From Variovorax sp. SG517 (GTDB lineage Bacteria; Pseudomonadota; Gammaproteobacteria; Burkholderiales; Burkholderiaceae_C): a stretch of DNA of 64,000 bases. Both the position numbers and the translations under genes were made by a program. The stretch covers positions 124,001 through 188,000 of the forward strand of contig NZ_JABMJG010000007.1 of the NCBI RefSeq assembly GCF_013376045.1, given 5' to 3'. The notes under the pieces are model-generated. The model did no database searches and had not been told where the DNA came from. It saw nothing but the letters and a program-made list of their open reading frames with translations. Shown piece after piece: positions 60,284 through 64,000 of this stretch. The number at the start of each line of letters is the position of its first letter. The first letter of the stretch is position 1.

Positions 60284-61516
60284 TCAACGCAGGTCGGGCG
60301 ACAGCGGCATGCTCACGCTGCCGTCGATGAACTTCACAGGGCCCGATGCATTCGGGTTGATGTCGAAGTCGAAGATGCCCGTGGGCAGCCACAGCGTGGC
60401 GCACGAGTTCGGCACGTCGACCACGCCGCTGATGTGGCCCTGCACCGGAGCCGTGCCCAGGATCGAATAGGCCTGCGCGCCCGAGTAGCCGAACTTCTTC
60501 AGGTACTCGATCGCGTTCAGGCAGGCCTGGCGGTAGGCCACGTTCACGTCGAGGTAGTGCTGCTTGCCGCTCTCGTCGACCGAAATGCCTTCGAAGATCA
60601 GGTAGTCGTTGTACTGCGGCGTGATGGGGCTGGGCTTGAAGATCGGGTTCTTGATGCCGTACTTGGCCATGCCGCCCTTGATGAGCGTGACCTTCATGTG
60701 CACCCAGCCGGCCATCTCGATGGCGCCGCAGAAGGTGATCTCGCCGTCGCCCTGGCTGAAGTGCAGGTCGCCCACGCTCAGGCCCGCGCCGTCGACGTAC
60801 ACCGGGAAGAACACCTTCGAGCCGCGCGACAGGTCCTTGATGTCGCAGTTGCCGCCGTGCTCGCGCGGCGGCACGGTGCGTGCGCCTTCCGCAGCGGCCT
60901 TCGCCCTCGCCTCGCCGGTCATCTTGCCCATGTGGGCGGTGCCGGCGAAGGGCGGATTGGCCAGGCCAGGCACGCGCTCAGGGTCGGTGGCGATGAGCGC
61001 CTTCTCGCGCTCGTTCCACATGTCGAGCATGGGTTTGTCGGGCAGGCAGCCGATGAGGCCGGGGTGGATCAGGCCCGCGAAGTTCACGCCCGGCACGTGC
61101 CGCGAGCTGGTGAACATGCCCTTGAAGTCCCAGATCGATTTCTGCGCCTCGGGGAAATGGTCAGTGAGGAAGCCGCCGCCGTTCTTCTTCGAGAAGAAGC
61201 CGTTGAAGCCCCAGAGGCTGTCCTGCTTGGCGCCGATGTCCAGCAGGTCGACCACCAGCAGGTCGCCGGGCTCGGCGCCCTTCACGCCCACGGGGCCGGA
61301 GAGGTAGTGCACCGTGCTCAGGTCGATGTCGCGCACGTCGTCCGCGCTGTCGTTGTTCTTGATGAAGCCGCCGGTCCAGTCGAAGGTCTCCAGGATGAAG
61401 TCGTCGCCCGGGTTGACCCAGCAGGCCATCGGGATGTCCGGATGCCAGCGGTTGTGGATCATCTCGTTCTCGGTGGGCGGCTTGGTCAGGTCGACCTTGA
61501 TCAGCGTGTCCGTCAT
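60284..61516 (-). CDS. fmdA: formamidase
   Basis: A 410-aa acetamidase/formamidase family enzyme, releasing ammonia from formamide. Blocks include HNRWHPDIPMACWVNPGDDF near the start, FDWTGGFIKNNDSADDVRDI, GLIGCLPDKPMLDMWNERE, and the late DVNVAYRQACLNAIEYLKKF. Length matches FmdA of Methylophilus (about 407 aa). AGGAG lies 8 nt upstream. It follows urtE by 39 bp on the same strand, so the upstream ABC transporter likely imports urea or short-chain amides that this enzyme hydrolyses. Confidence 0.94.
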   Translation of the reverse strand: MTDTLIKVDLTKPPTENEMIHNRWHPDIPMACWVNPGDDFILETFDWTGGFIKNNDSADDVRDIDLSTVHYLSGPVGVKGAEPGDLLVVDLLDIGAKQDSLWGFNGFFSKKNGGGFLTDHFPEAQKSIWDFKGMFTSSRHVPGVNFAGLIHPGLIGCLPDKPMLDMWNEREKALIATDPERVPGLANPPFAGTAHMGKMTGEARAKAAAEGARTVPPREHGGNCDIKDLSRGSKVFFPVYVDGAGLSVGDLHFSQGDGEITFCGAIEMAGWVHMKVTLIKGGMAKYGIKNPIFKPSPITPQYNDYLIFEGISVDESGKQHYLDVNVAYRQACLNAIEYLKKFGYSGAQAYSILGTAPVQGHISGVVDVPNSCATLWLPTGIFDFDINPNASGPVKFIDGSVSMPLSPDLR

Positions 61517-61555
61517 TTGCAGTGGCTCCTGGTTGGGTTGTGTTGAACGGAAGAA

Positions 61556-62257
61556 TCAAACGGAGAGATAGGCCTTGATGTGGTCCACGTCGGTCTTGTC
61601 GCGCGCCGTCTCGTGCACGAGGCGCCCGCCCTCGATCACGAAGAGCCGGTCGGCCACGTCCATCGCGAAGCTCAGCACCTGCTCTGACACGACGATGGTG
61701 ATGCCGCGCAGCTTGCGGATCTCGTTGAGCGCCTTGGCGATGTCCTTGATGATCGAAGGCTGGATACCCTCGGTGGGCTCGTCGAGCAGCAGTACCTTGG
61801 GGTCGGTGACGAGGGCTCGCGCAATGGCGAGCTGCTGTTGCTGGCCGCCCGAGAGGTTGCCGCCCTTGCGGCTCTTCATGTCCCACAGCACGGGGAACAG
61901 CGCATAGATTTCTTCGGGGATGCGGCGGGTCTTAGAGTTCTCCAGGCCCGTCTGGATGTTCTCTTCCACCGTCAGCGTCGGAAAGATCATCCGGCCCTGC
62001 GGTACGTAAGCGATGCCCTTGGCGACACGGCGGAAGCTCTCGTCGCGCGACACGTCCTGGCCTGCCACCTCGATGCGCCCGCTCTTCAGCGGCAGCACGC
62101 CCATGAGGCTCTTGAACAGCGTGGTCTTGCCCATGCCGTTGCGGCCCATGATGGCGATGGTTTCGTTGGCATGGCCCTCGAAGGAGATGCCGTGCAGGGC
62201 CTCGCTCTGGCCGTAGGCTACGTGCAGGTCTTCGACCTTCAGCATGATGTTGCTCAT
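61556..62257 (-). CDS. urtE: urea/short-amide ABC transporter ATP-binding protein UrtE
   Basis: A 233-aa ABC ATPase of the LivF/UrtE group. Walker A is GRNGMGKTTL, the signature is LSGGQQQQLAIARAL, and Walker B is VLLLDEPTEGIQPSIIKDIA. It starts MSNIMLKVEDLHVAYGQSEA. With UrtD it powers uptake by the UrtBC permease. It is separated from urtD by 296 bp that contain two long structured elements, whereas the other genes of the cluster are spaced by 14-39 bp. Confidence 0.94.
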   Translation of the reverse strand: MSNIMLKVEDLHVAYGQSEALHGISFEGHANETIAIMGRNGMGKTTLFKSLMGVLPLKSGRIEVAGQDVSRDESFRRVAKGIAYVPQGRMIFPTLTVEENIQTGLENSKTRRIPEEIYALFPVLWDMKSRKGGNLSGGQQQQLAIARALVTDPKVLLLDEPTEGIQPSIIKDIAKALNEIRKLRGITIVVSEQVLSFAMDVADRLFVIEGGRLVHETARDKTDVDHIKAYLSV

Positions 62258-62290
62258 CTCGTTGGACTCTCTTGGGTTGTGTTCGGGGTG

Positions 62291-62388
62291 CTTGCACAGG
62301 CCATCGGGTACTCCCCTCCGCGAATGTCCCCCGGGCTTTGCCCTCCTCCTTTATTTCGCTGCGGGGAGCACCCGACGCCCTGTGCAAG
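62291..62388. repeat. structured element A between urtD and urtE
   Basis: A 26-nt arm, CTTGCACAGGCCATCGGGTA then CTCCCC (62291-62316), pairs with 62363-62388 at 23 of 26 positions. It encloses a 46-nt core (62317-62362) starting TCCGCGAATGTCCCCC and ending CTCCTCCTTTATTTCGCTGC, with a central 4-bp hairpin GGGC-TTT-GCCC. The core is shared, in inverse orientation, with element B; the outer stem is different in sequence. Confidence 0.85.
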
Positions 62389-62435
62389 AGGACACGCCGC
62401 TGGTGCACGACTGATCAATGACTGCCCCGTCCAAC

Positions 62436-62529
62436 GCTCACGCCGATGGGGTGCCTTGCGCAGCGAAATAAAGGAGGAGGCCGAAGGCCGGGGGACATTC
62501 GCGGAGCAAGGTACCCCGTCGGCGTGAGC
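62436..62529. repeat. structured element B between urtD and urtE (inverse of A)
   Basis: A 24-nt arm starting GCTCACGCCGATGGGGTGCC (62436-62459) pairs with 62506-62529 at every position if two G-U wobbles are allowed. The 46-nt core (62460-62505) read on the minus strand differs from element A only in its centre, where GGCC-TTC-GGCC replaces GGGC-TTT-GCCC, so the apical stem is kept by compensating changes. Both elements lie within the urtD-urtE transcript. Confidence 0.85.
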
Positions 62530-62553
62530 TCGCCCTGAAAAACGGCAAGCCAT

Positions 62554-63297
62554 CTAGTGCCCCAGATAAACGTCGATGACCTTGGGATCGGCCTGCACCT
62601 TCTCCATCGGCCCTTCGGCGAGGATCTTTCCCTGGTGCATCACCGTGACCTTGTGCGCGATCTGCTTCACGAAGGCCATGTCGTGCTCGATGACGATCAC
62701 CGCACGGTTCTGGCAGATGCGCTTGAGCAGTTCGGCCGTGAGCTCGCGTTCGCGCGCACTCATGCCGGCGATGGGCTCGTCGAGCATCAGGAGCTCGGGC
62801 TCCTGCATCAGCAACATGCCGATTTCCAGCCACTGCTTCTGGCCGTGGCTCAGCAGGCCGGCCTCGGTGTCGAGGCGGTCGGCCAGGCCGATCTCCTCGG
62901 CGACCGACTGCACCCTGGACTTGACCTCGTCGTCGCACTTGAAGGCCAGCGCGCCGAACACCGAGCGGCCTTTCGGGAACGAAACCTCCAGGTTCTGGAA
63001 GACGGAAAGGTTCTCGTAGATCGAGGGCGTCTGGAACTTGCGGCCGATGCCCAGGCGCACGCGCTTGTGCTCGGCCATCTTCGTGAGTTCGGTGTTCCTG
63101 AACTTGATGCTGCCGGCGCTGGCGCGCGTCTTGCCGCAGATCAGGTCGAGCAGCGTGGTCTTGCCCGCGCCGTTGGGGCCGATGATCACGCGCAGCTCAT
63201 TGCGGTCGATGTACAGCGTCAAATCGTCGATGGCCTTGAAGCCGTCGAAGGAGACGGTGAGGTCTTCCACGGCGAGCGCGAAGTCTGTGTTGCTCAT
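62554..63297 (-). CDS. urtD: urea/short-amide ABC transporter ATP-binding protein UrtD
   Basis: A 247-aa ABC ATPase of the LivG/UrtD group, starting MSNTDFALAVEDLTVSFDGF. Walker A is GPNGAGKTTLLDLICGKTRA, the signature region is LSHGQKQWLEIGMLLMQEPE, and Walker B is LLMLDEPIAGM. The UrtD-typical LSHGQKQWLE replaces the LSGGQ of LivG. GGAG lies 7 nt before the ATG and the gene starts 19 nt after urtC. A longer open frame upstream overlaps urtC and is rejected. Confidence 0.95.
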   Translation of the reverse strand: MSNTDFALAVEDLTVSFDGFKAIDDLTLYIDRNELRVIIGPNGAGKTTLLDLICGKTRASAGSIKFRNTELTKMAEHKRVRLGIGRKFQTPSIYENLSVFQNLEVSFPKGRSVFGALAFKCDDEVKSRVQSVAEEIGLADRLDTEAGLLSHGQKQWLEIGMLLMQEPELLMLDEPIAGMSARERELTAELLKRICQNRAVIVIEHDMAFVKQIAHKVTVMHQGKILAEGPMEKVQADPKVIDVYLGH

Positions 63298-63316
63298 GAG
63301 GTGGCTCCGCGTGTGT

Positions 63317-64000
63317 TCAGGCGCGCTGGCTGCCGATGCCTTCGGGCAGCGCAGGCTCGGTCTCTGCTGCAATTGGTGCTGCTGCAGGGGCGGACGCGGC
63401 GGGGGCAACCGGCGGCTTCGCCGCCGCGTCGCGCAGCGCCTGGCGACGCGACTTCCACCACGGGCGGATCTTTTCTTCCCACACGCCGGCAAGCCCCATC
63501 GGGAAGGCCATGGTCACGCCGATGAACAGGCCCGCCATCAGGAACAGCCACAGGTCCGGGAAGCTCTCCGAGAACAGCGTCTTGCCCGCATTCACCAGCA
63601 GCGCGCCGTACACCGCGCCCACCAGGCTCATGCGGCCGCCCACGGCGCAGAAGATCACCATCTCGATGGAGGGCACGATGCCCACGAAGCTCGGCGACAT
63701 GAAGCCCACCTGCAGCGCGAACATGGCGCCGCCGATGCCCGAGAGCCCCGCGGCCAGGCAGAAGATGAAGACCTTGAAGTTCGACACGTCGTAGCCGGAG
63801 AAACGCACGCGATCTTCCTTGTCGCGCATCGCCAGCAGCAGCGTGCCGAGCTTGCTGGTCTGGATCCAGCGGCACAGCACGATGCTGCCCACCAGCAGGC
63901 CCACGCAGACGTAGTAGAGGATGTACTTGGCGCTGTCGGTGCGCGTGTCCCAGCCCAGCAGGGTCTTGAGGTCGGTCATGCCGTTCACGCCGCCCGTGTA
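63317..64000 (-). CDS. urtC: urea/short-amide ABC transporter permease UrtC, 5' end beyond window
   Basis: The C-terminal 227 residues of a LivM/UrtC-type permease. The frame is open to the right edge, where it reads YTGGVNGMTDLKTLLGWDTR, so the Met at 63988 is internal and the gene begins outside the window. It has about five membrane segments (ILYYVCVGLLVGSIVLCRWI, VFIFCLAAGLSGIGGAMFAL and so on), the permease coupling loop region LAMRDKEDRVRFSGYDVSNF, and an Ala/Pro-rich tail of about 40 residues. The tail is longer than in typical UrtC. Confidence 0.93.
   Translation of the reverse strand, partial: YTGGVNGMTDLKTLLGWDTRTDSAKYILYYVCVGLLVGSIVLCRWIQTSKLGTLLLAMRDKEDRVRFSGYDVSNFKVFIFCLAAGLSGIGGAMFALQVGFMSPSFVGIVPSIEMVIFCAVGGRMSLVGAVYGALLVNAGKTLFSESFPDLWLFLMAGLFIGVTMAFPMGLAGVWEEKIRPWWKSRRQALRDAAAKPPVAPAASAPAAAPIAAETEPALPEGIGSQRA

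Follow-up and report, generated by a model that had tools for sequence, protein, structure and literature searches.

A dispersed twin-hairpin element between urtD and urtE of Variovorax, possibly recognised as folded single-stranded DNA

What are the two large hairpins that lie head to head between urtD and urtE of Variovorax sp. SG517? The locus was analysed within positions 124,001-188,000 of contig NZ_JABMJG010000007.1 (assembly GCF_013376045.1), a stretch of 64,000 nt referred to here as the window, the coordinates of which are used throughout. A sequence-only reading of this DNA had described two separate elements of 98 and 94 nt in the 296-bp gap between the genes (62258-62553). Their coordinates and strong single-stranded DNA folds agree with that description (z-scores of -9.2 for the minus strand of hairpin A and -7.6 for the plus strand of hairpin B; 0 of 200 shuffles as good), and both hairpins are real; as separate elements they did not hold up, as alignment of twin copies joins them, together with terminal inverted repeats, into one unit. 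A and B are the two ends of a single unit of ~260 bp. With a probability of roughly 0.5, we propose that the urtD-urtE pair represents a copy of a twin-hairpin DNA element that is dispersed and non-autonomous and would be recognised as folded single-stranded DNA, a reading that draws on the strand bias of the stems and on analogy with known systems. The features of the locus are as follows.

62281-62292, plus strand: left terminal inverted repeat GTTCGGGGTGCT, from the alignment of 14 own-genome twins and 20 twins of one relative; family consensus GTTCGGGGYGCG
62291-62388, minus strand: hairpin A, 98 nt; the minus strand is the purine-rich, better-folding strand
62320-62359, plus strand: core of A, GCGAATGTCCCCC, apical hairpin, CTCCTCCTTTATTTCGC, written as the pyrimidine strand
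62389-62435, no strand: spacer separating hairpins A and B, divergent in sequence and almost constant in length
62436-62529, plus strand: hairpin B, 94 nt; the plus strand is the purine-rich, better-folding strand
62463-62502, minus strand: core of B, inverted relative to the core of A
62529-62540, minus strand: right terminal inverted repeat, degenerate, reading CTCGCCCTGAAA on the plus strand, from the same twin alignments; family consensus CGCGCCCCGAAC
62554-63297, minus strand: urtD, ATP-binding protein of the urea transporter (named by reading), start at the ATG of MSNTDFALAVEDL, stop codon facing the B end
61556-62257, minus strand: urtE (named by reading), downstream of urtD in the same operon, start facing the A end

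Direct comparison verified that the two cores are of equal length and differ solely in the apical hairpin (GGGCTTTGCCC versus GGCCTTCGGCC). The G-U wobbles reported in B are likewise real, and A shows the same kind when the opposite strand is read. The outer arms had been taken for rewrites of each other; they instead represent two end types, A and B, that are common to the twins of this genome. The terminal inverted repeats of the urtD-urtE copy are degenerate relative to the family consensus. A Shine-Dalgarno-like word, AAGGAGG, lies within the conserved loop of each core's purine strand (window 62463-62479). No intrinsic terminators were present within the element, and 4227 Rfam covariance models run on window 61000-64000 at E up to 1 gave no match in it, the sole match nearby being a weak P10 at 63221-63271, outside the element and below the gathering score.

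One unit in many copies

A 21-base core word, searched with up to three mismatches, matched 33 times in the own genome (7.42 Mb, 31 contigs) against 0 times for its reversed control, and a 76-nt query gave 36 matches, showing, together with the family-wide spread described below, that the pair is not limited to the two copies of the window. The own-genome matches comprise 14 twins, 3 long pairs with their members ~3.3-5.5 kb apart, a B whose A is truncated, and a remnant left by deletion. When the 14 twins were aligned, the left end was of type A and the right end of type B, bounded by the short terminal inverted repeats GTTCGGGGYGCG ... CGCGCCCCGAAC, and no conserved sequence was found outside these repeats. 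The pattern read backwards had 0 matches in the genomes scanned for the core (own, relatives and family), which excludes chance. One relative carries up to 109 core matches. The core-to-core distance was 103 nt in 20 of 20 twins taken from one relative and 97-107 nt in 118 of the 134 non-identical twins among the loci retrieved, and a twin was present or absent between relatives at the L066 site.

The core pattern was found in 26 of 37 genomes of the genus Variovorax and in 0 of 24 genomes from the order's other families, and a looser pattern in 37 of 399 genomes of the family (15 of 141 genera). Further carriers among the matches listed include Ramlibacter, Hydrogenophaga, Rhodoferax, Pseudorhodoferax, Xylophilus, Lysobacter, Pseudoxanthomonas and a Stagnimonas metagenome-assembled genome; the core thus also occurs outside the family, in some Gammaproteobacteria such as Lysobacter. 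A class-wide covariance search, which scored the best 10 candidates per genome only, was positive in 4 of 369 genomes, of which two belong to a different family of the class. Among plasmid records the element was found, unannotated, in three Variovorax megaplasmids, and phage records contained no match to it.

Some copies carry rearrangements. An internal deletion is common to L067 of the own genome (~1815-1890, C10) and to L244 and L260 of relatives, and is nearly the same in L452 of a relative; in the shared deletion a CCCCG repeat forms the junction between the 5' arm of A and the distal arm of B, as if the hairpins brought both CCCCG repeats together in replication. Imperfect tandem pieces of the terminal repeat GTTCAGGGCGCTGC lie outside several twins of genome G344 (L309-L328), as if insertions or excisions had recurred at the ends.

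Changing stems, a fixed loop and the folding strand

For covariation, 38 of 157 unique halves were chosen at <80% arm identity, with broken hybrids retained. In this non-redundant set 85.1% of cells were paired, compared with 61.2% when shuffled and 36-45% when slid; the covariation score was 0.557 versus 0.147, and 27 of the 31 outer pairs showed double-sided change, upholding the earlier proposal of selection on RNA or DNA structure. The check that accompanied this proposal, for further copies with covarying stems, was positive on both counts. Across all 157 halves the arms paired with their own partner at -44.2 kcal/mol versus -25.6 kcal/mol with a swapped partner. Between genera both stems have been swapped for unrelated sequence with pairing retained, and the GCGAA/TTCGC helix beside the loop has itself been replaced in two lineages.

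Between the inner and outer stem, each end contains a conserved purine internal loop, about RTMAAGGRGGAG opposite GGRGGACAT. One position pair of this loop changes in concert (C/T 297, T/C 17, T/T 4 and C/G 3 in 321 halves, where one position of the pair was preset in several source patterns and a C/C case in G173 lies outside the tally). Read on the purine strand, the concerted change is from G·A to A·G and is non-Watson-Crick; besides Variovorax, another genus (L483, L491) and another family (L493) show it.

The wobbles distinguish the strands. Outer-stem G·T wobbles numbered 347 on the purine-rich strand versus 27 on the other (157 halves), and the bias recurred in each end type (A 213:21, B 222:10, untyped 118:14; 242 halves). 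The commonest wobbles fell at arm positions 10 and 16 alike, though the stems are unrelated. G·A mismatches likewise mark the purine strand of the outer stem. Furthermore, the purine strand, which leads outward to a 3' end at both A and B, folded better under DNA parameters in 156 of 157 halves and under RNA parameters in 154 of 157. Because the G·T wobbles sit on it at both ends alike, the purine strand appears to be the one that folds. The sequence-only reading had left the choice between a mobile palindromic element and a structured family; since A and B share the strand bias despite their opposite mRNA strands, the evidence leans to a mobile element and to single-stranded DNA.

Gene context, the urtD-urtE site and long versions

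Each of the 14 own twins borders one or more gene 3' ends, and none was placed between divergent genes; in other counts divergent contexts made up 0 of 27, 6 of 33 and, pooled, 8 of 86. In tandem contexts the B end faced the upstream stop codon in 17 of 19 and 12 of 12 twins of two sets, and in 38 of 41 when all retrieved loci were pooled and identical twins removed. These direction counts require both halves to be typed and both neighbours to be on one strand (19 of 32, 12 of 42 and, pooled, 41 of the 107 non-identical twins with sufficient flank), and the pooled count treats orthologous sites separately, urtD-urtE included. Gene neighbours were assigned by an open reading frame (ORF) rule rather than by annotation, and two runs disagree for 3 of the 14 own twins (L071, L073 and L076).

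To follow the urtD-urtE site through species, 30 of 42 strong urtE matches were retrieved, of which 29 were readable (L223 was unreadable): 11 sites carry intact twins in the same orientation, 6 carry remnants, 11 are without the element and 1 holds another palindrome. Among the 11 intact twins the fixed core was 0.97 (B) and 0.99 (A) identical, the arms 0.80-0.91, the spacer 0.64 and the flanks 0.35 and 0.50. Double-sided changes beat all 500 shuffles (7 of 30 pairs in B and 6 of 30 in A), and half-way states were mostly purine-strand wobbles (27 versus 3 in B and 25 versus 0 in A; other mismatches numbered 9 and 14, respectively); inner hairpins were swapped whole between orthologous copies. 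The contrast between core and spacer, the double-sided changes and the purine-strand wobbles indicate that the fold was retained after insertion, through selection or through conversion from other copies. The other palindrome, an inverted repeat CCCTCTCCCGCTTGCGGGAGAGGG at L225 (genome G468), shows that the urtD-urtE gap has accepted more than one kind of palindrome.

Long versions, in which cargo separates the ends, were examined at 23 loci (20 retrieved and 3 own), and the results in this paragraph concern them, not the window copy. Both ends were recognised in 10 of the 23 by a strict search, and in one further long version in Xylophilus. When 12 relatives were searched with the joined flanks from the three own cassettes, the same sites appeared with other content. 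At site 2 the own genome holds a caspase and a STAND NTPase, G016 an OLD-like ATPase, G480 PD-Lambda-5 proteins and G460 Drt8 with LmuA/LmuB, while G274 and G468 hold other genes; in G009 a PDC-S26 protein lies by the right flank of site 2, where the contig ends. Site 3 is without the element in G017, G468, G274, G460 and G031, the last of which has a deletion remnant at site 1, and cassettes are present or absent between relatives. The same conserved flanks hold different defence systems in different species, and the long versions are therefore hotspots. The Drt8 reverse transcriptase and the Lamassu LmuA/LmuB pair stand together at L214 2237-7410 (G460, site 2). A small ORF (MATKTIARP...) lies near one end, B where typed, in 10 long versions (in the own genome at L061 5894-6160, L062 7806-8060 and L063 3218-3484); its relatives occur in 20 of 61 genus genomes, with up to 13 matches per genome, and the small protein had no Pfam or NCBIfam match.

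Competing explanations and known systems

Under the proposed mechanism, an enzyme acting in trans would recognise each end as folded single-stranded DNA through the internal loop, in the way that TnpA_REP and integron integrases read folded strands. Such recognition would have spread the twin, and recombination within the conserved ends and flanks could later have exchanged the cargo between A and B. No target-site duplication was visible by eye in 14 own and 20 relative copies, where the flanks of empty sites were too diverged for a clean comparison; this agrees with single-strand transposition.

Several observations weigh against the mobile, single-stranded DNA element. No movement event of the element was observed, and empty-site junctions at the L066 site and the cassette sites are too diverged to fix its exact ends. 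Part of the core conservation follows from the search itself, since the patterns that recovered most copies prescribe core letters. The inner hairpin is free of strand bias (purine strand 16, other strand 19, by simple ungapped pairing). No core lay within ~1.5 kb of 59 Y1-transposase loci (30 of 59 matches in the genus and 29 of 29 outside it), and no transposase or recombinase was found among the 25 listed of the 39 Pfam families of 38 cargo proteins. At the urtD-urtE site, further pair types in the B orthologues do not exceed shuffles (196 of 500 reach the count), related sequences can exceed shuffles without structure, and the persistence of intact twins at this single site in 11 species points to a host role or to gene conversion following insertion. 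The position at gene ends and the direction are not predicted by a mobility function alone. As to an autonomous copy, the 10 genus and 1 Xylophilus long versions contained no recognised transposase among the families listed, the terminal repeat not having been searched genome-wide.

Gene-end position (14 of 14 own copies) and preferred direction (17/19, 12/12 and 38/41) are what an intercistronic RNA element would show, in which the transcript folds both hairpins, or the inverted cores form a long duplex, and thereby sets mRNA processing, stability or differential expression, dispersal being secondary. Pairing of the two hairpins with each other could, as the sequence-only reading suggested, remodel the urtD-urtE mRNA. 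The Shine-Dalgarno-like AAGGAGG on the purine strand and the retention of fold and core in the urtD-urtE copy while spacer and flanks diverge also fit this explanation. We nevertheless regard it as rather unlikely: in the favoured direction the mRNA carries only A as the purine strand and B as the poorer-folding pyrimidine strand, yet the wobble bias is the same at both ends (222:10 versus 213:21), so that selection on mRNA alone fails to explain B. Moreover, the element is degraded in 6 and absent from 11 of the 29 readable urtD-urtE sites, and Rfam had no match in it.

The twin might instead be a REPIN (paired inverted repetitive extragenic palindromic, or REP, sequences) mobilised by the genome's single REP-associated tyrosine transposase (RAYT/TnpA_REP), an idea favoured by its paired inverted hairpins, extragenic location, strand-specific fold with fixed mismatches and lack of a visible target duplication, and by a PF01797 (Y1_Tnp) match in 58 of 61 genus genomes, exactly one in 57. 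It is an improbable account, since no core lay near the 59 Y1_Tnp loci, 7 of the 32 core-bearing genomes outside the genus were without a Y1_Tnp match (one with 13 core matches, and one single-contig genome with 5), and the hairpins show no GTAG-type foot and measure 94-98 nt rather than 20-40 nt; RAYT was rejected as mobiliser on the first two grounds, and on all of them the twin element is not filed as a REPIN. Least probable of all is an origin without selection, as a dead palindromic repeat whose symmetry is kept by template-switch correction in replication and by gene conversion between copies. Whole replacement of inner hairpins between orthologues, without strand bias, speaks for it, as does the CCCCG deletion junction common to three copies in different genomes and nearly the same in a fourth, the recurrence of which indicates that the hairpins do affect replication. 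Such correction, however, should yield Watson-Crick pairs on both strands and not a 13:1 wobble bias, with wobbles clustered at positions 10 and 16 of unrelated stems and a coordinated G·A to A·G change; it also leaves unexplained a 30-nt core 97-99% identical next to a 64% spacer, though gene conversion might explain this.

If the element is indeed recognised as folded single-stranded DNA, it would represent a new recognition principle in mobile DNA, in which an unpaired purine loop and the choice of strand are read while the stems are free; sequence-based annotation can then miss the element between genera, because the stems are free to change. More tentatively, it could define a new class of mobile elements. 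The ends of such an element, each a conserved purine internal loop in freely evolving stems, would be read as folded single-stranded DNA by a putative enzyme, and the element itself would carry or dock sets of anti-phage genes that can be swapped at fixed positions in the chromosome. The ends that flank the defence hotspots are the same, and would offer a concrete route to the swapping of anti-phage systems in Variovorax, a genus common in soil and on roots. With the family come a covariance model that is ready for use and folded substrates that can be tested in the search for the enzyme, and the effect on downstream expression of a structured element with a preferred direction between operon genes is directly measurable.

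The earlier statement that no named family fits agrees with the Rfam result and with a literature search, of sources lacking most subscription journals, in which no published description of the twin-hairpin family was found; the family is apparently undescribed so far. A term search of PMC3733652 and PMC6006769 gave no mention of the genera concerned. IS110 bridge RNA, group IIC introns, known ribozymes and CsrA/RsmA GGA sites were set aside by reasoning alone. At L177 1471-2166 (own C11:46653) a Y1 transposase-like gene lies upstream of a gene that reads as glutamate-synthase-like; with a single copy in 57 of 61 genus genomes and no link to the twin element, it resembles a domesticated RAYT; a fuzzy core match near Y1_Tnp at L279 proved spurious.

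Like a miniature inverted-repeat transposable element (MITE), the twin element has multiple dispersed short copies, terminal inverted repeats and no transposase gene. According to PMC10969869, MITE transcripts would form stable stem-loops, as twin-element transcripts likewise would. In contrast to MITEs, no target duplication was visible by eye and no parent insertion sequence (IS) was found among the long versions, and the ends are conserved as structure rather than sequence, with near-constant hairpin spacing. A MITE cited in PMC10969869 (Mattes 2008) was reportedly found in Polaromonas JS666, of a genus in the same bacterial family.

IS200/IS605 elements are not known to make target duplications. 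Their ends are recognised as folded single strands, according to PMC8266576, whereas the twin element has terminal inverted repeats and inverted hairpins, and no TnpA or TnpB was recognised inside its long versions.

Closer parallels are found in REPINs and bacterial interspersed mosaic elements (BIMEs) with TnpA_REP, and in integron cassettes with their attC sites. REPINs and BIMEs are not known to make target duplications; like the twin element, they are extragenic and contain two inverted palindromes in each unit. A further likeness, described in PMC8266576, lies in their strand-specific hairpins, in which mismatches are conserved. The twin element differs from them in hairpins about three times longer, in alignments without a fixed tetranucleotide at the foot, in a conserved internal loop with free stems on both sides, in its cargo-bearing forms and in a RAYT flanked by the same palindrome at 0 of 59 loci. 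In attC sites one strand folds, and the consensus has the R box GTTRRRY / RYYYAAC. As in integron cassettes, imperfect hairpins delimit the cargo, varying in sequence but retaining their fold and unpaired bases; unlike such cassettes, the twin element has two inverted hairpins per unit, forms no array and often bears multi-gene cargo at fixed chromosomal hotspots. An R/L box consensus was not noticed by eye in the twin alignments, and no integrase stood among the listed cargo families, no integrase search having been made. By analogy, with its folded single-strand ends and fixed unpaired features, the element would work most like a REPIN or an attC site.
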